A stretch of DNA of 47,826 nucleotides, taken from Pseudomonadota bacterium. Its GTDB lineage: Bacteria > Pseudomonadota > Gammaproteobacteria > UBA6429 > Thiohalophilaceae. Position 1 is the stretch's first letter. The number at the start of each line of letters is the position of its first letter. Both the position numbers and the translations under genes were made by a program. The notes beneath the pieces were generated by a model. The model did not search any database. It worked only from the letters and a program-made list of their open reading frames with translations, and was not told the DNA's origin. The stretch lies in contig JAJDNN010000070.1 in NCBI GenBank assembly GCA_022340685.1, positions 1 to 47,826 of the forward strand. Reading direction: 5' to 3'. This document shows, piece by piece, positions 702-44,161 of the stretch.

Positions 702-1310
702 ATGCAATATGCCGAGATCATCAATCTGACCGTTTCTGACGGCCTGATGATACTGGCGGCTTACCTTGTGGGCGGGATTAGCCCGGGGTATCTGCTGGTG
801 CGCATGCTACGCGGTATCGATATCCGAACCGTTGGCAGTGGTAGCCTGGGTGCACGCAATGTCGGGCGAGTGCTGGGGCGGAAAGGGTTTTATTTCGCCC
901 TGGTGGCAGACATCCTGAAAGGTGCTTTTATTGTCTGGTTGGCGCGCGAGCTGGATTTTCCGCCCGGTGTCGTAGGTAGTGTTGTGGTCGCCGTTATTGT
1001 GGGTCATATCTGGCCGCTGTGGCTCCATTTTCACGGTGGCAAGGGGATTGCGACCAGCCTGGGCGCATTTGTGGCGCTCGATTACAAGATATTGTTGATG
1101 GGTGGCGTGGTGCTGCTTGTTACCTATATGGCGACGCGCAGCTTTCTGGTGAGCTGGATTGCTACGCTGGTAGCCATGCCACTGATTGCATTTTCGCTCG
1201 GCTACCCCATGTACGTGGTTGTGCCACTATTCGTTTCTGCCGCGATAGTATTGTATGCACATAAAGAGAACATCAAGCAGGCGTGGCATACGTCGGAGCA
1301 CAAAGGATAA
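702..1310 (+). CDS. PlsY-family glycerol-3-phosphate acyltransferase-like membrane protein
   Basis: Motifs YLVGGISPGYLL, GSGSLGARNVGRVLGRKG, LWLHFHGGKGIATSLGAF and multiple TM segments match the PlsY family. Confidence 0.85.
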   Translation: MQYAEIINLTVSDGLMILAAYLVGGISPGYLLVRMLRGIDIRTVGSGSLGARNVGRVLGRKGFYFALVADILKGAFIVWLARELDFPPGVVGSVVVAVIVGHIWPLWLHFHGGKGIATSLGAFVALDYKILLMGGVVLLVTYMATRSFLVSWIATLVAMPLIAFSLGYPMYVVVPLFVSAAIVLYAHKENIKQAWHTSEHKG

Positions 1311-1318
1311 ACAACGGC

Positions 1319-2968
1319 ATGTCAACTAATGATTCACTGGTTTTCAAGATTGCCTCGGAGCCCTGGGAGTTCGAGCAGATCCATGAACTGAATTATCAAA
1401 CCTTCGTGGACGAGATCCCACAGCACCAGCTGAATAAAAACAAGAAACTTGTCGATAAGTATCACAAGGAAAACACCTATGTAATTTGTGTGAGTGACAA
1501 GGAAGTACTGGGCATGATCGCATTGCGTGATAAACGGCCGCTATCACTGGATGAAAAACTTGAAAATCTGGAATCTTATCTGCCGCCCTTTAAGACAATT
1601 CTTGAATACCGTTTATTGGCGGTAAAGAAACAACATCGCAATACCGCTATCTTTACCGGCATAATGAAAAAATCTTTCGACTTGGCGATTAAAGGTGGCT
1701 ATGACATAGCCGTTATTTCTGGCACCACTCGCCAGGCCCGACTTTACAAGCATCTGGGCTTTAAACCCTTTGGGCCGTTGGTCGGCAAACAGGACGCGCT
1801 GTACCAGCCCATGTATATCGACATTGGTGGCGCGATTGAACTGAAAAAACAATCACAAATTCTGAGACCAAAGAAGGGCAGCGAGATGGAACAGTTGCTG
1901 TTCAACTACCTGCCAGGCCCGGTCTCGATTGCCGAAGGCGTCATGGAGGCCAATTCGGCAGAACCCAATTCACATCGCAGTCAGCAGTTTATGGACCATT
2001 TCAACGAACTGCGCAAAATCCTGTGTGAACGGGTGAATGCGCGGAAGGTCCAGATCATGATGGGCTCGGGCACCCTGGCAAATGATGTCGTTGCGGCGCA
2101 ATTAAGCGTTCTGCCGGGCCGGGGTCTGGTGCTTGTTAACGGTGAATTTGGTAATCGTTTGCGTGATCAGGCGACTCGTGCCGGTCTGGATTTCGATGTC
2201 ATTCAGGTTGAGGAGGGTAAAACCTTCAGCCGTGAAATGCTGGAAGAAAAAATCAATCAGGTTGAAAATCTGGAATGGATCTGGACCGTTCATTGCGAAA
2301 CATCCACCGGGGTACTCAATGATATTGATATGTTGCGCGAACTGTGTAACCGGCATAACTTGAAGCTGTGCTTAGATGGTATCAGCAGCATTGGATCCTG
2401 TGATGTCAACCTGCAGGATGTGTATCTGGCAACCGCAGTCAGCGGCAAGGGTATTGGTTCGCTTCCGGGTCTGGCAATGGTGTTCTGTCGGGAAGATGTC
2501 GTGTCCGGTGATCACCAATTACCGCGTTATTTTGACCTGGCGTATTACGAAGCCAAGCAGGGTATCCCGTTTACCATTTCATCCAATGCCATCTACGCAC
2601 TGAATGCCGCACTGAATAATAGTGACTGGCAGACCCGCTTCACCAACGTCAAGCAGTGGTCTGAAGAGTTGCGCACCGAGTTCGAGGAAATTGGCCTGTC
2701 GATTTTGGCCGAGCCACAGTGCCGGGCGCCACACGTAACAACTATTGTGTTGCCCAAGGCCATTTCGTCACTGGATATGGGCAAGTTGCTGGAAGAGGAA
2801 GGTATTCTGGTTAGTTATCGTAGTGAATACCTGATTGCGAAGAACCAAATCCAGGTCTGCTTCATGGGTGATTGCCAGAAGCCACCACGTATGATCACCT
2901 ATTTCCTGCGTGAAGCTCTGGCGCAGACAGAACCGCATGATGATTCTGCCGAAGCTGGCGCTGCCTGA
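1319..2968 (+). CDS. Fused GNAT-type acyltransferase + class V PLP-dependent aminotransferase
   Basis: ATG at 1319 just after the plsY stop (track start at 1283 is upstream). N-terminal GNAT-like fold (ARLYKHLGFKPFGP); C-terminal aminotransferase V motifs MMGSGTLANDVV, HCETSTGVLNDI, CLDGISSIGS and SGKGIGSLPG (likely PLP lysine). Confidence 0.85.
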   Translation: MSTNDSLVFKIASEPWEFEQIHELNYQTFVDEIPQHQLNKNKKLVDKYHKENTYVICVSDKEVLGMIALRDKRPLSLDEKLENLESYLPPFKTILEYRLLAVKKQHRNTAIFTGIMKKSFDLAIKGGYDIAVISGTTRQARLYKHLGFKPFGPLVGKQDALYQPMYIDIGGAIELKKQSQILRPKKGSEMEQLLFNYLPGPVSIAEGVMEANSAEPNSHRSQQFMDHFNELRKILCERVNARKVQIMMGSGTLANDVVAAQLSVLPGRGLVLVNGEFGNRLRDQATRAGLDFDVIQVEEGKTFSREMLEEKINQVENLEWIWTVHCETSTGVLNDIDMLRELCNRHNLKLCLDGISSIGSCDVNLQDVYLATAVSGKGIGSLPGLAMVFCREDVVSGDHQLPRYFDLAYYEAKQGIPFTISSNAIYALNAALNNSDWQTRFTNVKQWSEELRTEFEEIGLSILAEPQCRAPHVTTIVLPKAISSLDMGKLLEEEGILVSYRSEYLIAKNQIQVCFMGDCQKPPRMITYFLREALAQTEPHDDSAEAGAA

Positions 2969-30474: not shown

Positions 30475-30882
30475 GTGTTGAGCTACGATTTAATCAAAAC
30501 GCTGCATATCGCTACCGTCGTTACGACATTCCTGCTATTCGTAACGCGTGCCGCCTGGTTGTTCGGCCAGGCAAACAACCGGCCAGGCTGGATGCGCTGG
30601 TTACCGCACGTCAATGATACCCTGTTGCTGATTTTTGGTATCTGGCTTGCCGTTCTGGCCGGACTAAATCCCCTACTGCACGCCTGGCTGCTGGCCAAGT
30701 TGATTGCGTTGATTGTTTACATCTGGCTTGGCATGCTGGCCCTGAAATGGGCGCAAACCCGCCGCAGCCAGGTCATTGCGATTGTGCTGGCACTGCTGGT
30801 ATTCGGCTATATGGTGGGTGCTGCATTGACCAAACAGGCAGGGTGGATTGGCTTTGTAGGCTTGACCACTAAAATATTTTAA
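30475..30882 (+). CDS. SirB2 family integral membrane protein
   Basis: LIKTLHIATVVTTFLLFVTRAAW, LPHVNDTLLLIFGIWLA; four TM helices. Confidence 0.85.
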   Translation: MLSYDLIKTLHIATVVTTFLLFVTRAAWLFGQANNRPGWMRWLPHVNDTLLLIFGIWLAVLAGLNPLLHAWLLAKLIALIVYIWLGMLALKWAQTRRSQVIAIVLALLVFGYMVGAALTKQAGWIGFVGLTTKIF

Positions 30883-31820
30883 AAACGGACGACTGCGTGA
30901 CCACCTTGCTCAATCCAGCCGTGTATCATCTTTTTGGTAGTGAACCCGCTGGCACAGTTGCCTAGCTTATCAATCACAATTACTCCACCCCGTCCATTCA
31001 CTTTATCGGTTAAATACTGGATACCTGCTTGCGTAGCTTGTTCAGCATTCATGCCCTTCATATAGATAAAGTCTGATATGGTTTTGGCAATAACGCTACG
31101 CATAAAATCTTCACCATAGCCGGTGGCGGATACTGCACATGTTTCATTGTCCGCATAAACTCCTGCGCCGATAATGGGAGAATCCCCGACCCGACCCATT
31201 CGCTTGTTGACAATACCCCCGGTTGAGGTTGCGGCAGCAAGATTCCCATCGGAATCACGTGCAATGGCTCCGATGGTTCCATATTTCTGATCTTCACTAT
31301 CGTTTTCGGTGTCGTCGTGATCCAGCATGACCTTGTGCTTCAGGCGGGCTTTATTAAATTGCTCTATACGATCAGGTGTATAGAAATAATTTTCCGGTGC
31401 GCGATCCATGCCGCAATGTTCAGCAAAACGTATGGCGCCTTCGGAAATCAACATAACATGCTCACTTTCAGTCATAACGAAGCGTGCCAGCTGAATCGGG
31501 TTGGAGATATTATCTACTGCGGCCACCGCACCGGCGGACAGATTGCGCCCATCCATAATTGCGGCATCCATTTCTACCTTGCCTTCTTCGTTTAGTACTG
31601 AACCACAACCGGCATTAAATATTGGGTCATCTTCAAGCAGGGACGCGCAGGTTTCTACCGCTTGTAATGCCGAGCCACCGAGTGTAAGTATTTCGCGACC
31701 ATGCTCAAGGACACGACGGATACTTTCCAGATAACGAACTGCAGTTTTGTTATCCTTTATGTTATCCATGGCCCCGGCACCGCCGTGAACCATAAGCGAA
31801 AAATTGTCTGATTGATTCAT
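30879..31820 (-). CDS. Isoaspartyl peptidase / L-asparaginase (Ntn hydrolase)
   Basis: FSLMVHGGAGAM, FNAGCGSVLNEEGKVEMDAAIMDG, autocatalytic YGTIGAIARD, STGGIVNKRMGRVGDSPIIGAGVYAD. Confidence 0.93.
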   Translation of the reverse strand: MNQSDNFSLMVHGGAGAMDNIKDNKTAVRYLESIRRVLEHGREILTLGGSALQAVETCASLLEDDPIFNAGCGSVLNEEGKVEMDAAIMDGRNLSAGAVAAVDNISNPIQLARFVMTESEHVMLISEGAIRFAEHCGMDRAPENYFYTPDRIEQFNKARLKHKVMLDHDDTENDSEDQKYGTIGAIARDSDGNLAAATSTGGIVNKRMGRVGDSPIIGAGVYADNETCAVSATGYGEDFMRSVIAKTISDFIYMKGMNAEQATQAGIQYLTDKVNGRGGVIVIDKLGNCASGFTTKKMIHGWIEQGGHAVVRF

Positions 31821-31883
31821 AAACGACTAATTGACGGGAATGATGCCGGCACACTTAATGTGATGACGAATCAAAAAATCATA

Positions 31884-33002
31884 TCAGAGTCGGGCAGCAA
31901 GTTCTACTTCCAGCGCATCCTGGTATGGCCGTGAACCCGCCATCAGTATTACCAGTTTGCCCTCCAGAACAGTTCCCCAGTTGATTACAATCGCGCCTTC
32001 ACCGGTTCTTTTATCAAACTCAATATCACTGAGATCGATGTTTGCAAGCGACCGGTGTCTGGTTGAAAAGTTCATGGCTGTCCATTCAGGGATATCAAGT
32101 TTCTGTGCAACAATTGTTGGATATGTCGCGCCATTAAATCGCGGGTTACATTCAATGACAGGAAAACGCAGGCCCCTGTCTGTTTGGGTAATAGCAACAT
32201 CGAATGCGAAGATGCCCTTCATGCCATGTTCCACTAACCATTGAGCCATCTTGTCAACTGCAACCCAGGGTTCAAGGCTGGCAGGATAGCGATTTCCCTG
32301 ATGTGTGAATTTATCCAGTATTTGTTCGCTTGCGGCAAGGCGAACAACATCGTTTCCGAGCACCCTGTACTGCAAATTCAGGAAGGTCTCTGTATTCACT
32401 TCTTCCTGTATCTGGACCGGAGTATCATCTGGAAATTGCGATAGAGCCGCCCTGAACTCAATTTTGTCTGCACAATGGTAAATACCTACCCCGGAAACAG
32501 ACACTGCTGCCTTGAGGTAACAGGGAAAGGTGATTTCACTTATGACCTCGGACCCGATATCTGTGACATTGTTAAAACAGAGTGTCATGGGCACATCAAC
32601 ACCAAGCTTTTCAGCCAGGGCTATGAAATTGTTTTTTGAGTTTATGTATTCAACAGTTTCCAGCCACGCATGGTCGCCCCAGTAGCCACATTCATTCGGA
32701 CCAAAATAGAAAACAGATGGTTGAAATCCGATATGTGAGCCGAGGTGTTTCAGATTCAGGTCCCAGATCACATATTCCGTGTGGGGCAGGCCAATACGCT
32801 GATAGTGGGCAACGATGTCCTGCCAGAGTGGTTTCAATGCCGGGTGAAGTTGAATGATATCGCTGGGTTCCGAGACCCCCAGAGCGCGACCGGAATACAG
32901 ATAATTGCCCGCTACTCCCTCGGCTGTACAATTCATTATGTCGTGATTGATTATGTATTTACCCGCCGGTAAATAGCCGTGACTGATAGCAACAGATGAC
33001 AT
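31884..33002 (-). CDS. ATP-grasp domain ligase of unknown substrate
   Basis: C-terminal metal site FPVIECNPRFNGATYPTIVAQKL; central KAAVSVSGVGIYHC loop; IQEEVNTETFLNLQYRV; start at Met8 of track ORF (33002) or 33023. Confidence 0.8.
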   Translation of the reverse strand: MSSVAISHGYLPAGKYIINHDIMNCTAEGVAGNYLYSGRALGVSEPSDIIQLHPALKPLWQDIVAHYQRIGLPHTEYVIWDLNLKHLGSHIGFQPSVFYFGPNECGYWGDHAWLETVEYINSKNNFIALAEKLGVDVPMTLCFNNVTDIGSEVISEITFPCYLKAAVSVSGVGIYHCADKIEFRAALSQFPDDTPVQIQEEVNTETFLNLQYRVLGNDVVRLAASEQILDKFTHQGNRYPASLEPWVAVDKMAQWLVEHGMKGIFAFDVAITQTDRGLRFPVIECNPRFNGATYPTIVAQKLDIPEWTAMNFSTRHRSLANIDLSDIEFDKRTGEGAIVINWGTVLEGKLVILMAGSRPYQDALEVELAARL

Positions 33003-33359
33003 GACTTTTATCCTCCTGCCCACACCTTCTACATAAATGAAAGCAAGTATCAGGCCATGCAGTAAGTTGCTGTTATATCAAGAATCAGTCATGGACTTGG
33101 GTATAATTATGGTGCGTGAATATGAGCCTTTGCGCAGTTTTGGTGCGACCGGTATTCGTGAACAGAGCCTGATGTTCCCGTACGATTGTGCGGCACCATT
33201 GGGCCGGTGCGTATCTACCGTCATTAGTGGGTGGTTGCCCAAAGTTACAAGGTAGATGGACTGCCTGAATGTATGGATGCATTACCAGTGCAACGACGTG
33301 CCTTGTAAGTGGGTGAGGGGTGTTTTCATGCTAGCCGAACGTAATTTTAGTGGAAGAAT

Positions 33360-41204: not shown

Positions 41205-41714
41205 TTACCGGCGCAGTGTCAAGGTATTGCCTTTCTGGCTGAATTCGACGTGTTTGAGGAACGACATGCCGAGCAGGACATCATCGCCCGACATATTGGG
41301 ATTGATAGAGGCGGACACATCTTGCAGGGTGAGATTACCGAGGGTAACCGAACCCAGTCGGGTAGCATAATTGATAACCTGGCCATTGGCAGTCTGGTAC
41401 ACCACGGGTCGGCCGCGTTTCAGTCCAAGACGCTGCGCGGTGGACTGGGGGATGGAGATATCGCTGGCGCCAGTATCCAGCATGAACACCACGGGCTGCT
41501 GGTTGATCAGTCCGGAGGCTACATAGTGGCCGTACTTGTTGCGCACCAGCACGACTTCCTGGGCTTTGCCTACCATGCGTTGTGCCAGGTTCTGGTTCGG
41601 GTTGTATTGCCTGTCGAGCACCTTACTGAAAAACAGGGTGAGCAGGCCCAGCAGTACCAGCCACATGAGCCAGAACATGTTGCGACCGAATTTGCGCTGC
41701 TGGCGTTCGCTCAT
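41205..41714 (-). CDS. Retropepsin-like aspartic protease (TIGR02281 family), membrane anchored
   Basis: N-terminal TM; VVFMLDTGASDISIPQSTAQRLGL, DDVLLGMSFLKHVEF. Confidence 0.9.
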   Translation of the reverse strand: MSERQQRKFGRNMFWLMWLVLLGLLTLFFSKVLDRQYNPNQNLAQRMVGKAQEVVLVRNKYGHYVASGLINQQPVVFMLDTGASDISIPQSTAQRLGLKRGRPVVYQTANGQVINYATRLGSVTLGNLTLQDVSASINPNMSGDDVLLGMSFLKHVEFSQKGNTLTLRR

Positions 41715-42607
41715 TGGTCCGTTTCGTCCCGGTAACGAAGTGTTAAATCGTCATAGGCATCGATGCGCCGGTCACGCAGGAAGGGCCAGATACGCCGTAC
41801 CGTTTCGCTGCGCTGAAGATCCAGCGTGGCAATCACTACTTCATCTTCATCCATACTGGCTTCGGCCAGCAGTTCACCCTGCGGCCCGGCAATGAAACTC
41901 GAACCCCAGAACCGGATTGTGGAAGACTGATCAGGGGCATGCTCGGTGCCGGTCCGGTTGCAGCATAAAAGCGGGATGCCGTTGGCGACGGCATGGGCGC
42001 GCTGCACGATTTGCCAGGCGTCTTTCTGTCGTTGCTGTTCCGCGCTGTCGTCGGCAGGGTCCCAGCCGATCGCGGTGGGGAACAGCAAAAGCTCGGCACC
42101 GGCCAGCGCCATCAGGCGGGCGGCTTCGGGAAACCACTGGTCCCAGCAGACCAGTACACCGAGTTTACCCAGCGAGGTCTGGATTGGCGTAAAGCCGAGA
42201 TCACCGGGTGTGAAGTAGAATTTTTCGTAATAGCCGGGATCGTCCGGGATATGCATCTTGCGATACCGGCCAGCCAGGGAACCATCGGCGTCAATGACGA
42301 CCGCGGTGTTGTGATACAGGCCGGCACTGCGTTTCTCAAACAGGGATGCCACGATAACCACTTGCAGTTCCGCCGCAAGTTCAGCTAGCAGTTTGCTCGT
42401 TGGACCAGGCAGCAATTCGGCCAGTTCGAAGTGCGCGGGATTTTCCGTCTGACAGAAATAAAGCGAGTTATGCAATTCCTGTAACAATACCAGTCGGGCA
42501 CCCCGGGCGTGGGCGTCCCGGATGCCTGACAGGACTCGTTCGATATTGGTGGCAGGGTCATCGGTACAGACGTGCTGGACGAGGGCAACTTTCAGTGCAG
42601 AGGACAT
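41711..42607 (-). CDS. aguB: N-carbamoylputrescine amidase (carbon-nitrogen hydrolase)
   Basis: QELHNSLYFCQTENPAHFELAE, RKMHIPDDPGYYEKFYF, VLVCWDQWFPEAARL; aguA nearby; ATG at 42607. Confidence 0.92.
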   Translation of the reverse strand: MSSALKVALVQHVCTDDPATNIERVLSGIRDAHARGARLVLLQELHNSLYFCQTENPAHFELAELLPGPTSKLLAELAAELQVVIVASLFEKRSAGLYHNTAVVIDADGSLAGRYRKMHIPDDPGYYEKFYFTPGDLGFTPIQTSLGKLGVLVCWDQWFPEAARLMALAGAELLLFPTAIGWDPADDSAEQQRQKDAWQIVQRAHAVANGIPLLCCNRTGTEHAPDQSSTIRFWGSSFIAGPQGELLAEASMDEDEVVIATLDLQRSETVRRIWPFLRDRRIDAYDDLTLRYRDETDQ

Positions 42608-42729
42608 GACGGCATGCTTTGATGAATGGATATTGGAAACGATGATTATAACCGGATTTTCTGCCTGCCGGACGGCATGCGGGATGGAGTATACTGTCCG
42701 CACTCTGAACGACCCAAAAGGAAGGGACC

Positions 42730-43119
42730 GTGAAAACCATTGCCGTCAACCTGATGTTTGCCTTGTTGCTGGTTTTGCCGGGCTGTGCCAGCGTGGATAT
42801 CAATCACAAATTCAATGACGCCACGTTCCGTTATGAGCGGGCACTGCGCTGGGGTAATCCGCAGCAGGCAACCATGTTCCAGAAGCACCCAGAAAAATTC
42901 AGCGACAAGCAACTACAGCAATTCAAGCGGATCAAAATCACCGCCTACAATCTTGTTGACTCGGTCAAGTCAGGCAACCAGGTCAAACAGACGGTAGAAA
43001 TCCAGTATTACCGTGACGATGAAGTGGTCGTGCATACCCTGATGGATCATCAGCTGTGGGAATATGACACTGATACCGGCAATTGGTATCTGATGACACC
43101 GATCCCGACCTTCAAATAG
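42730..43119 (+). CDS. Small lipoprotein of unknown function
   Basis: MKTIAVNLMFALLLVLPGCASV lipobox. Confidence 0.8.
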   Translation: MKTIAVNLMFALLLVLPGCASVDINHKFNDATFRYERALRWGNPQQATMFQKHPEKFSDKQLQQFKRIKITAYNLVDSVKSGNQVKQTVEIQYYRDDEVVVHTLMDHQLWEYDTDTGNWYLMTPIPTFK

Positions 43120-44161
43120 GGATACTTGCAGGCAACTGCATGGTGATACAGTGCAGGCTGCCATTTTGCCGGATCAGAGGCCGGCAATCGATACCAATGA
43201 TTTCCCGATCCGGAAAAGCGTCGGCCAGTTTGGCCATTGCGACGGCATCGTTGGTGTCGTTATACAAGGGCACCAGCACCGCCGTATTAATAATCAGAAA
43301 GTTGGCGTAACTACCCGGCAGGCGCTGCCCGGCCTCGTCATAAATCGGCGCTGGTATGGGCAGGTCGATCAGCCGGTAGGGTTGACCATCGGGCTGGCGG
43401 AGTTGCGCCAGCTCCGCGCGCATGGTGGACAGCGCCGGGGTGTTCTCATCGGTTGGATCCTCGCATACGCTACAGGCCAGGGTGCCGGTATCGCAGAAAC
43501 GGGCCAGCATATCGATGTGGCCATCGGTATCGTCCCCGGCCAGACTGCCATGCTGCAGCCACAGGATGTGCTCCACTCCCAGGTGATGGCGTAGCTGGAT
43601 CTCCAGTTCATCACGGGACAGGCCCGGGTTCCGATCAGGGTGAAGCAGGCAGGAGGTGGTGGTGAGCAGGGTGCCCGCACCATCGCTGTCGATACTGCCG
43701 CCTTCCAGAACAAGCTCGACATGTTCAGCGGGGACATTATCGAAAATGCCCTGCGCAATCAGCCCGGCGGTGATCCGATCATCGAGGTCATGCTCGAATT
43801 TACCGGCCCAGCCATTGAAACGAAAGTCGAGCAGGCGCGCCGTACCGTCTTCCAGCACCGTAATGGGCCCGGAGTCCCGCGCCCAGGTGTCATTGGAAGG
43901 CTGGACGGCGTAGCGGACACGATGTGCGCTGATGCCGGCCTCGTTAAGACAACCGGAAACATGTTGCAGGTGAGCATCGCTATGACACACGACCAGTAGT
44001 TTTTCGTATGACGTGATGCCCTGTGCCAGCTGCAGATAGACCGCTTCGACCGCCGCGAGATCCTCATTCCAGTCGGTGTGGCCATGGGGCCAGATCAGCA
44101 TGATGCCGCTCTGCGGCATCCATTCCGCCGGCAGAAGGCGATGCGCGCCCGTGACAGTCAA
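43112..44161 (-). CDS. aguA: Agmatine deiminase
   Basis: LLPAEWMPQSGIMLIWPH, NDTWARDSGPITV, LEGGSIDSDGAGTLLTT, WLQHGSLAGDDTDGHID; TTG start. Confidence 0.94.
   Translation of the reverse strand: MTVTGAHRLLPAEWMPQSGIMLIWPHGHTDWNEDLAAVEAVYLQLAQGITSYEKLLVVCHSDAHLQHVSGCLNEAGISAHRVRYAVQPSNDTWARDSGPITVLEDGTARLLDFRFNGWAGKFEHDLDDRITAGLIAQGIFDNVPAEHVELVLEGGSIDSDGAGTLLTTTSCLLHPDRNPGLSRDELEIQLRHHLGVEHILWLQHGSLAGDDTDGHIDMLARFCDTGTLACSVCEDPTDENTPALSTMRAELAQLRQPDGQPYRLIDLPIPAPIYDEAGQRLPGSYANFLIINTAVLVPLYNDTNDAVAMAKLADAFPDREIIGIDCRPLIRQNGSLHCITMQLPASIPI

Follow-up and report, generated by a model that had tools for sequence, protein, structure and literature searches.

Organization of the locus

The window analysed here, a stretch of 47,826 nucleotides from the gammaproteobacterial genome G000, carries close to its 5' end two adjacent genes read from the forward strand. 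The first, plsY2, encodes a divergent membrane acyltransferase of the PlsY family, and the second a protein in which a GNAT domain is fused to a class V PLP enzyme. The features of this two-gene locus are the following:

702..1310, forward strand: plsY2, divergent PlsY-family membrane acyltransferase of 202 aa (PF02660, 138 bits; clade apart from canonical PlsY, support 100/99)
834..869, forward strand: PlsY motif 1, GSGSLGARNVGR, with the phosphate-clamp Ser and Arg kept, Asn37 replaced by Ser and Thr41 by Arg (alignment; roles from PMC5700162)
1260..1271, forward strand: PlsY motif 3, HKEN, with the equivalents of His177 and Asn180 kept (alignment)
1319..2968, forward strand: GNAT-class V PLP enzyme fusion, 549 aa (ORF coordinates and domain matches)
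1319..1864, forward strand: GNAT domain, residues 1-182, predicted FeeM/AHL-synthase-like fold (PF21926; structure model and Foldseek; stand-alone homologue at L067)
1901..2938, forward strand: class V PLP domain, residues 195-540 (PF00266; Foldseek matches 2dr1 and 7e7g/1m32)
2447..2449, forward strand: codon of Lys377 (SGKG), predicted PLP Schiff-base lysine, invariant in the 11 complete fusions and aligned with the class V Lys
2852..2854, forward strand: codon of Gln512, at the position of the class V substrate-carboxylate Arg (alignment)

The TAA of plsY2 occupies positions 1308-1310 and the ATG of the fusion gene begins at 1319, which leaves the spacing of 8 bp given in the first-pass annotation of this DNA. 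The domain plan drawn there also holds: the N-terminal GNAT-like domain of about 180 aa (residues 1-182) matches PF21926 and the class V aminotransferase domain (residues 195-540) matches PF00266, both above cut-off, and the motifs HCETSTG and SGKGIGSLPG are both found in the fusion. The rest of the window is housekeeping-looking DNA, with succinate dehydrogenase genes, nadB, a degP-lepA-lepB-rnc-era-recO-pdxJ block and others, named from the list of open reading frames. About 180 bp upstream of plsY2, positions 8-520 encode a circularly permuted YpsA/SLOG-family protein (PF12694, 185 bits). Further along, at 30879-33023, a plant-type asparaginase gene (PF01112) adjoins a same-strand gene for a 379-aa protein that has no Pfam match, and at 41711-44161 a PF00795 carbon-nitrogen hydrolase stands together with a PF04371 protein of the peptidyl-arginine-deiminase type, in an arrangement like that of the agmatine deiminase/N-carbamoylputrescine amidase route to putrescine.

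Distribution and genomic context of the pair

Twelve fusions were found: that of the window, those of genomes G040, G041, G822, G042, G043, G019, G005, G226, G059 and G792, and that of Cytobacillus spongiae. The G792 fusion is partial and lies at a contig end, and the other 11 are complete. PlsY2 stands beside the fusion in nine of the twelve, in Gammaproteobacteria, in Desulfobacterota (Candidatus Electrothrix) and in Bacillota (C. spongiae), so that the linkage first noticed in the window is conserved over three phyla. In eight cases (window, G040, G041, G822, G042, G043, G059 and C. spongiae) plsY2 immediately precedes the fusion in the same orientation, at a distance of 7-119 bp, and in G019 it lies 0.7 kb downstream of the fusion. 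A plsY search did not find PlsY2 in the genomes of G005 and G226, though both carry the fusion. The fusion itself is rare, occurring in 3 of 369 gammaproteobacterial genomes, the window's own included, and in 1 of 395 genomes of the phylum of Electrothrix, that one being the query genome itself; a phage search returned one partial match to the PLP domain in one record. With dN/dS values of 0.12-0.22 for plsY2 and 0.05-0.07 for the fusion, both genes are under purifying selection and, since they are also adjacent in genomes of three phyla, their coupling is real and goes beyond chance.

The window fusion is 84-87% identical to those of G040, G041 and G822, which belong to another order, and 47% identical to that of G019, which belongs to its own family. 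This cross-order pattern of identity, together with the jumps between phyla, suggests horizontal transfer, perhaps recent, the alternative being a mis-binning of the contig. The fusion tree is weakly resolved save for the Electrothrix pair, and the long branches of G059, G019 and G005 blur its deep order; the module has probably spread by horizontal transfer.

Several genes accompany the pair. In G040, G041 and G822 it is followed, on the opposite strand, by genes for a cyclopropane-synthase-like methyltransferase of the CMAS family and for an FA_hydroxylase protein of 171-176 aa, and in G019 the order is hydroxylase, CMAS, FabF-like condensing enzyme, fusion and PlsY2. The window genome has its FA_hydroxylase, at 75% identity, on another contig. 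Among 25 genomes of the family searched for both genes, the hydroxylase occurs only in G000 and G019, which bear PlsY2, a co-occurrence with the low-scoring plsY that amounts to two genomes, few and related. In Electrothrix, G059 and C. spongiae, neither hydroxylase nor CMAS was seen next to the pair. The surroundings of the G005 fusion include CdsA, PlsC-type and PAP2/dual-specificity phosphatase genes. In C. spongiae the pair lies on a 690-kb plasmid (L113:13631-18455), with pssA about 7 kb further, in an operon coding for a TMEM164-like membrane protein, PlsY2, the fusion and an LTA-synthase-like protein, whose gene, third after plsY2 and the fusion, overlaps the fusion by 4 bp. Taken together, these lipid-modifying satellites point to membrane lipids, but none of them is common to all lineages. 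As a separate observation, in Candidatus Electrothrix gigas (L064:8075-9339) tandem genes for 176-aa cysteine-rich ferredoxin-like proteins lie just upstream of plsY2; the two copies are identical in protein sequence and may alternatively be an assembly duplication.

PlsY2 as a specialised paralog

The window PlsY2 matches PF02660 with 138.1 bits (cut-off 24.1), and its match to the PlsY model TIGR00023 is borderline, with 137.7 bits against a cut-off of 137.2. Three orthologous PlsY2 fall below the latter cut-off, with 115.9 bits in G059, 125.3 in G019 and 95.5 in C. spongiae. Besides PF02660, the family search gave for the window protein only a sub-threshold DUF2834 match, and PF01553 and PF19576 were not matched.

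The window copy had been proposed to be a specialised paralog because it lies away from tsaD and folB, and its position is as described: the housekeeping plsY of relatives adjoins tsaD (G041, G059) or folB/folK (G019), neighbours that were judged by sequence, without a profile scan. A second plsY, by which this proposal was to be checked, does not appear in the window's own genome, where a single PF02660 search of an assembly 86.8% complete, in 208 contigs, gave one plsY. A second, canonical plsY is present in all six other pair-bearing genomes searched (G040, G041, G042, G043, G019 and G059), among which G041 is a 2.8-Mb chromosome and G042 and G043 are Candidatus Electrothrix. In two-copy genomes the canonical protein scores 176-184 bits and the copy at the fusion 121-136 bits; the window copy, with 138 bits, groups with the second, fusion-linked set, and PlsY2 forms in the tree a clade separate from the canonical PlsYs. 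Since the six other genomes also carry a normal plsY, the window PlsY is, on the evidence of these relatives, a specialised paralog.

It could be argued instead that PlsY2 is a housekeeping or backup PlsY that happens to lie beside an unrelated enzyme, as the single plsY of the window genome and the retained active-site clamp would allow. That explanation is very improbable and largely refuted already, given that both types of plsY occur in the six related genomes and split with 100/99 support, that the pair is adjacent in three phyla, and that the window genome is just 86.8% complete.

Active site of PlsY2

The PlsY2 sequences were aligned with 37 canonical PlsYs and with 5xj5, whose numbering (Aquifex aeolicus PlsY) is used here, and the roles of the residues were taken from the A. 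aeolicus structure (PMC5700162). The window protein retains the phosphate clamp formed by Ser35, Arg45, Lys104 and Asn180, plus His177 and His92. Over the whole set, the equivalents of Ser35, Arg45, Lys104 and His177 are retained with the exception of G059, which has Thr for Ser35, and in C. spongiae a Lys is aligned at Asn180. With these clamp and acyl-phosphate residues kept, PlsY2 still has the appearance of an acyltransferase that depends on acyl-phosphate and works on a phosphate-bearing acceptor.

Other positions have changed. Asn37, of the oxyanion site, is replaced by Ser or Thr in eight of nine PlsY2 and Thr41, which contacts the acyl-phosphate carbonyl, by Arg in four of nine. Position 139 is Ser in 37/37 canonical PlsYs and Leu, Asp, Ile, Lys or Thr in 9/9 PlsY2, and the position of Ser142 holds Trp, Val or Gly, a position at which canonical gammaproteobacterial copies vary too. 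Because the helix bearing residues 139 and 142 faces the 2-position of glycerol-3-phosphate (G3P), these changes could suit an acceptor that is substituted differently at that position, though drift would account for them just as well.

The substitutions beside the acyl-phosphate carbonyl and the oxyanion, in an enzyme that keeps the G3P phosphate clamp, also lend themselves to another explanation, according to which PlsY2 would be a G3P acyltransferase for an unusual acyl-phosphate (hydroxylated, branched or very long) and the fusion would transfer the same chain to a separate N-acyl compound. The common theme would then be an unusual fatty acid and not an unusual acceptor, and the chain-modifying CMAS and FA_hydroxylase neighbours, like the FabF-like condensing enzyme within the G019 cluster, would find their place in it. 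We regard this explanation as unlikely, if the most serious of the competitors: Ser139 and Ser142, which face the 2-OH of G3P, are more consistently altered, a FeeM-like GNAT-PLP fusion is hard to read as a donor modifier, and in three lineages the pair was found without chain-modifying genes at its side.

The GNAT domain of the fusion

The GNAT domain matches the FeeM family PF21926 with 31.8 bits (gathering cut-off 27), and several GNAT models match it too. Its structure was modelled with a pLDDT of 84, and Foldseek places this model close to the CoA-dependent AHL synthase BjaI (TMq 0.72), to LasI (0.70) and to FeeM (2g0b, 0.67-0.69), the top match by E-value being a small CoA-dependent GNAT. 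From this AHL-synthase- and FeeM-like predicted fold, long-chain N-acylation is the natural guess for the activity of the domain. In a Thiotrichaceae MAG the GNAT domain is encoded alone (L067:10001-10549, 182 aa, 73% identical to the GNAT domain of the window), with no PLP domain downstream; by identity it nests inside the fused family and has probably arisen through loss or splitting of the fusion.

The closeness of the modelled fold to AHL synthases and FeeM raises the question of whether the fusion might make a diffusible N-acyl signal or an N-acyl amino acid, with PlsY2 balancing the supply of acyl-phosphate or being incidental. G005, G226 and the GNAT-only L067, in which PlsY2 is missing near the gene or from the genome, agree with such a role. 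We nevertheless hold it to be improbable, since the pair is conserved over three phyla together with genes that modify lipids, since the neighbouring ORFs that were read show no recognisable LuxR-type regulator, and since a signal synthase does not need a PlsY of its own.

The PLP domain of the fusion

The PLP domain matches PF00266 (Aminotran_5) with 58.3 bits (cut-off 21.5), and 2dr1 and the AEP transaminases come nearest to it in sequence and in fold, with Foldseek TMt of about 0.82 for 2dr1 and 7e7g/1m32. It retains Asp353 and Lys377. At the position of the carboxylate Arg each of the 11 complete fusions has Gln, where 2dr1 and nearly all aligned class V relatives have Arg; in AGT the corresponding residue, Arg360, forms a salt bridge to the substrate carboxylate (PMC9340776). 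The exceptions among other class V proteins are an outlier with Tyr and L037 (G015:C84:2212-3240), a distant, stand-alone class V PLP protein with Gln, which may be related to the source of the PLP domain in the fusion.

The motifs had led to a comparison with aminoethylphosphonate- or serine-type transaminases, and this assignment was not supported. The PhnW-AepZ model (TIGR03301) gives 145 bits against a cut-off of 360.8, and because Gln512 replaces Arg in every complete fusion the domain is not filed under the PhnW or serine-pyruvate transaminases. A phosphonolipid reading was set aside as well, PEP mutase being inconsistently present: PF13714, a model that also catches methylisocitrate lyases, is above cut-off in three of ten genomes and missing from four. 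PDB entry 9os7, which shares the PLP match at the same offset, was considered for the same architecture and dismissed, as it is a Mycoplasma penetrans methionyl-tRNA synthetase fusion.

An intact PLP Lys and Asp combined with Gln in place of the carboxylate Arg, in 11/11 complete fusions, would also suit a lyase, a decarboxylase or a racemase whose substrate is an amino acid or the product of the GNAT domain, with PlsY2 then acylating the amino alcohol derivative that results. A parallel way to such amines is known, the decarboxylation of phosphoserine to ethanolamine phosphate (PMC11800397). Against this variant, all the families that come closest in sequence and fold are transaminases, and we judge this variant improbable in much the same degree as the signal.

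A proposed pathway

Because both genes travel together in rare bacteria of three phyla, the pair probably builds an undescribed nitrogen-containing membrane lipid, a view drawn from sequences. We propose, tentatively and at a little short of an even chance, that the locus is a two-gene lipid module which in three phyla makes a two-chain, amide-containing, phosphate-bearing lipid through the PLP domain, the GNAT domain and PlsY2. The PLP domain would supply or modify a small phosphate-bearing amine, and the fused GNAT domain would acylate the nitrogen of that amine with a long chain donated by acyl-ACP or acyl-CoA. The N-acylated product would then pass to the membrane, where a free hydroxyl would receive from PlsY2 a second chain, taken from acyl-phosphate. 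The end product would be an aminolipid built like phosphatidic acid, N-acylated by the GNAT domain and O-acylated by PlsY2. We infer every one of these reactions, as well as the identity of the amine, for which serinol phosphate from dihydroxyacetone phosphate is favoured, because N-acyl-serinol phosphate would offer PlsY2 a primary hydroxyl and a phosphate like those of G3P. Transamination of dihydroxyacetone phosphate to serinol phosphate is known from Campylobacter jejuni (PMC11800397).

Four points weigh against this aminolipid module. PlsY2 keeps essentially the whole G3P clamp and therefore may still use ordinary G3P. Gln512 leaves the donor carboxylate without an obvious site, which makes transamination doubtful. 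G005 and G226 have the fusion without PlsY2, so the product of the fusion does not strictly depend on PlsY2. Finally, no hydroxylase or CMAS gene was seen at the side of the pair in Electrothrix, G059 and C. spongiae. Of the earlier idea that the pair makes or acylates an amino-containing head group, lipid N-acylation survives as the best reading, and the transaminase type assigned to it does not.

In its most specific form, the proposal would be an undescribed membrane phospholipid class with one amide-linked chain, for example N,O-diacyl-serinol phosphate as the amide analogue of phosphatidic acid. Its synthesis would take a PLP enzyme with a fused N-acyltransferase, and a PlsY accepting an N-acylated amino-alcohol phosphate. 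We consider this form of the proposal distinctly unlikely; if true, such a lipid would occur in cable bacteria, in relatives of the Thiotrichales and in a relative of Bacillus.

Comparison with known systems

A literature search outside most subscription journals returned no GNAT-aminotransferase-PlsY system, no such PlsY paralog and no such cable-bacterium lipids. To our knowledge, no role of PlsY has been described beyond the opening step of ordinary phospholipid synthesis. A PlsY paralog tied to an N-acyltransferase/PLP fusion in three phyla, cable bacteria included, suggests a hidden branch of membrane-lipid chemistry.

Each component of the system has a recognisable relative. Like the PlsY of 5xj5 (PMC5700162), PlsY2 belongs to family PF02660 and has the phosphate clamp, the acyl-phosphate site and His177; unlike it, PlsY2 belongs to a separate clade, is altered at Asn37, Thr41, Ser139 and Ser142 and scores at the edge of TIGR00023 or below it, and it differs from a housekeeping PlsY in being an additional paralog away from tsaD/folB. 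The GNAT domain shares its predicted fold with FeeM (2g0b) and with the AHL synthases BjaI and LasI, the FeeM Pfam model being above cut-off, but is about 15-20% identical to them and is fused to a PLP domain. For the latter, PhnW/AepZ (7e7g, 1m32) are the best-scoring class V relatives by family model and are close by fold, and the fusion departs from them by its score (145 vs 360.8 bits), by Gln in place of the carboxylate Arg and by genomes in which PEP mutase is inconsistent. PntC-AEPT (6pd1), like the window fusion, joins an N-terminal domain to a class V PLP fold.

As a system, the closest likeness is found in the aminolipid pathways OlsB-OlsA, GluB, GlsB and OlsF (reviewed in PMC11631085). 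In these pathways, as here, a GNAT-type N-acyltransferase and an O-acyltransferase are often encoded by adjacent genes, and their product is a two-chain amide lipid, as is proposed for the pair. The GNAT of the window system differs in being fused to a PLP enzyme. The second-step enzymes of known bacterial aminolipid pathways are PlsC/LPLAT-like (PF01553) or PF19576 proteins (PMC11631085), whereas here the O-acyltransferase is PlsY-like (PF02660) with a predicted use of acyl-phosphate; and the head groups of known aminolipids are amino acids or similar, whereas the acceptor here is probably phosphate-bearing. Taken with these differences, the best reading of the pair, by analogy, is that of a variant on the two-step synthesis of N- and O-acylated aminolipids.
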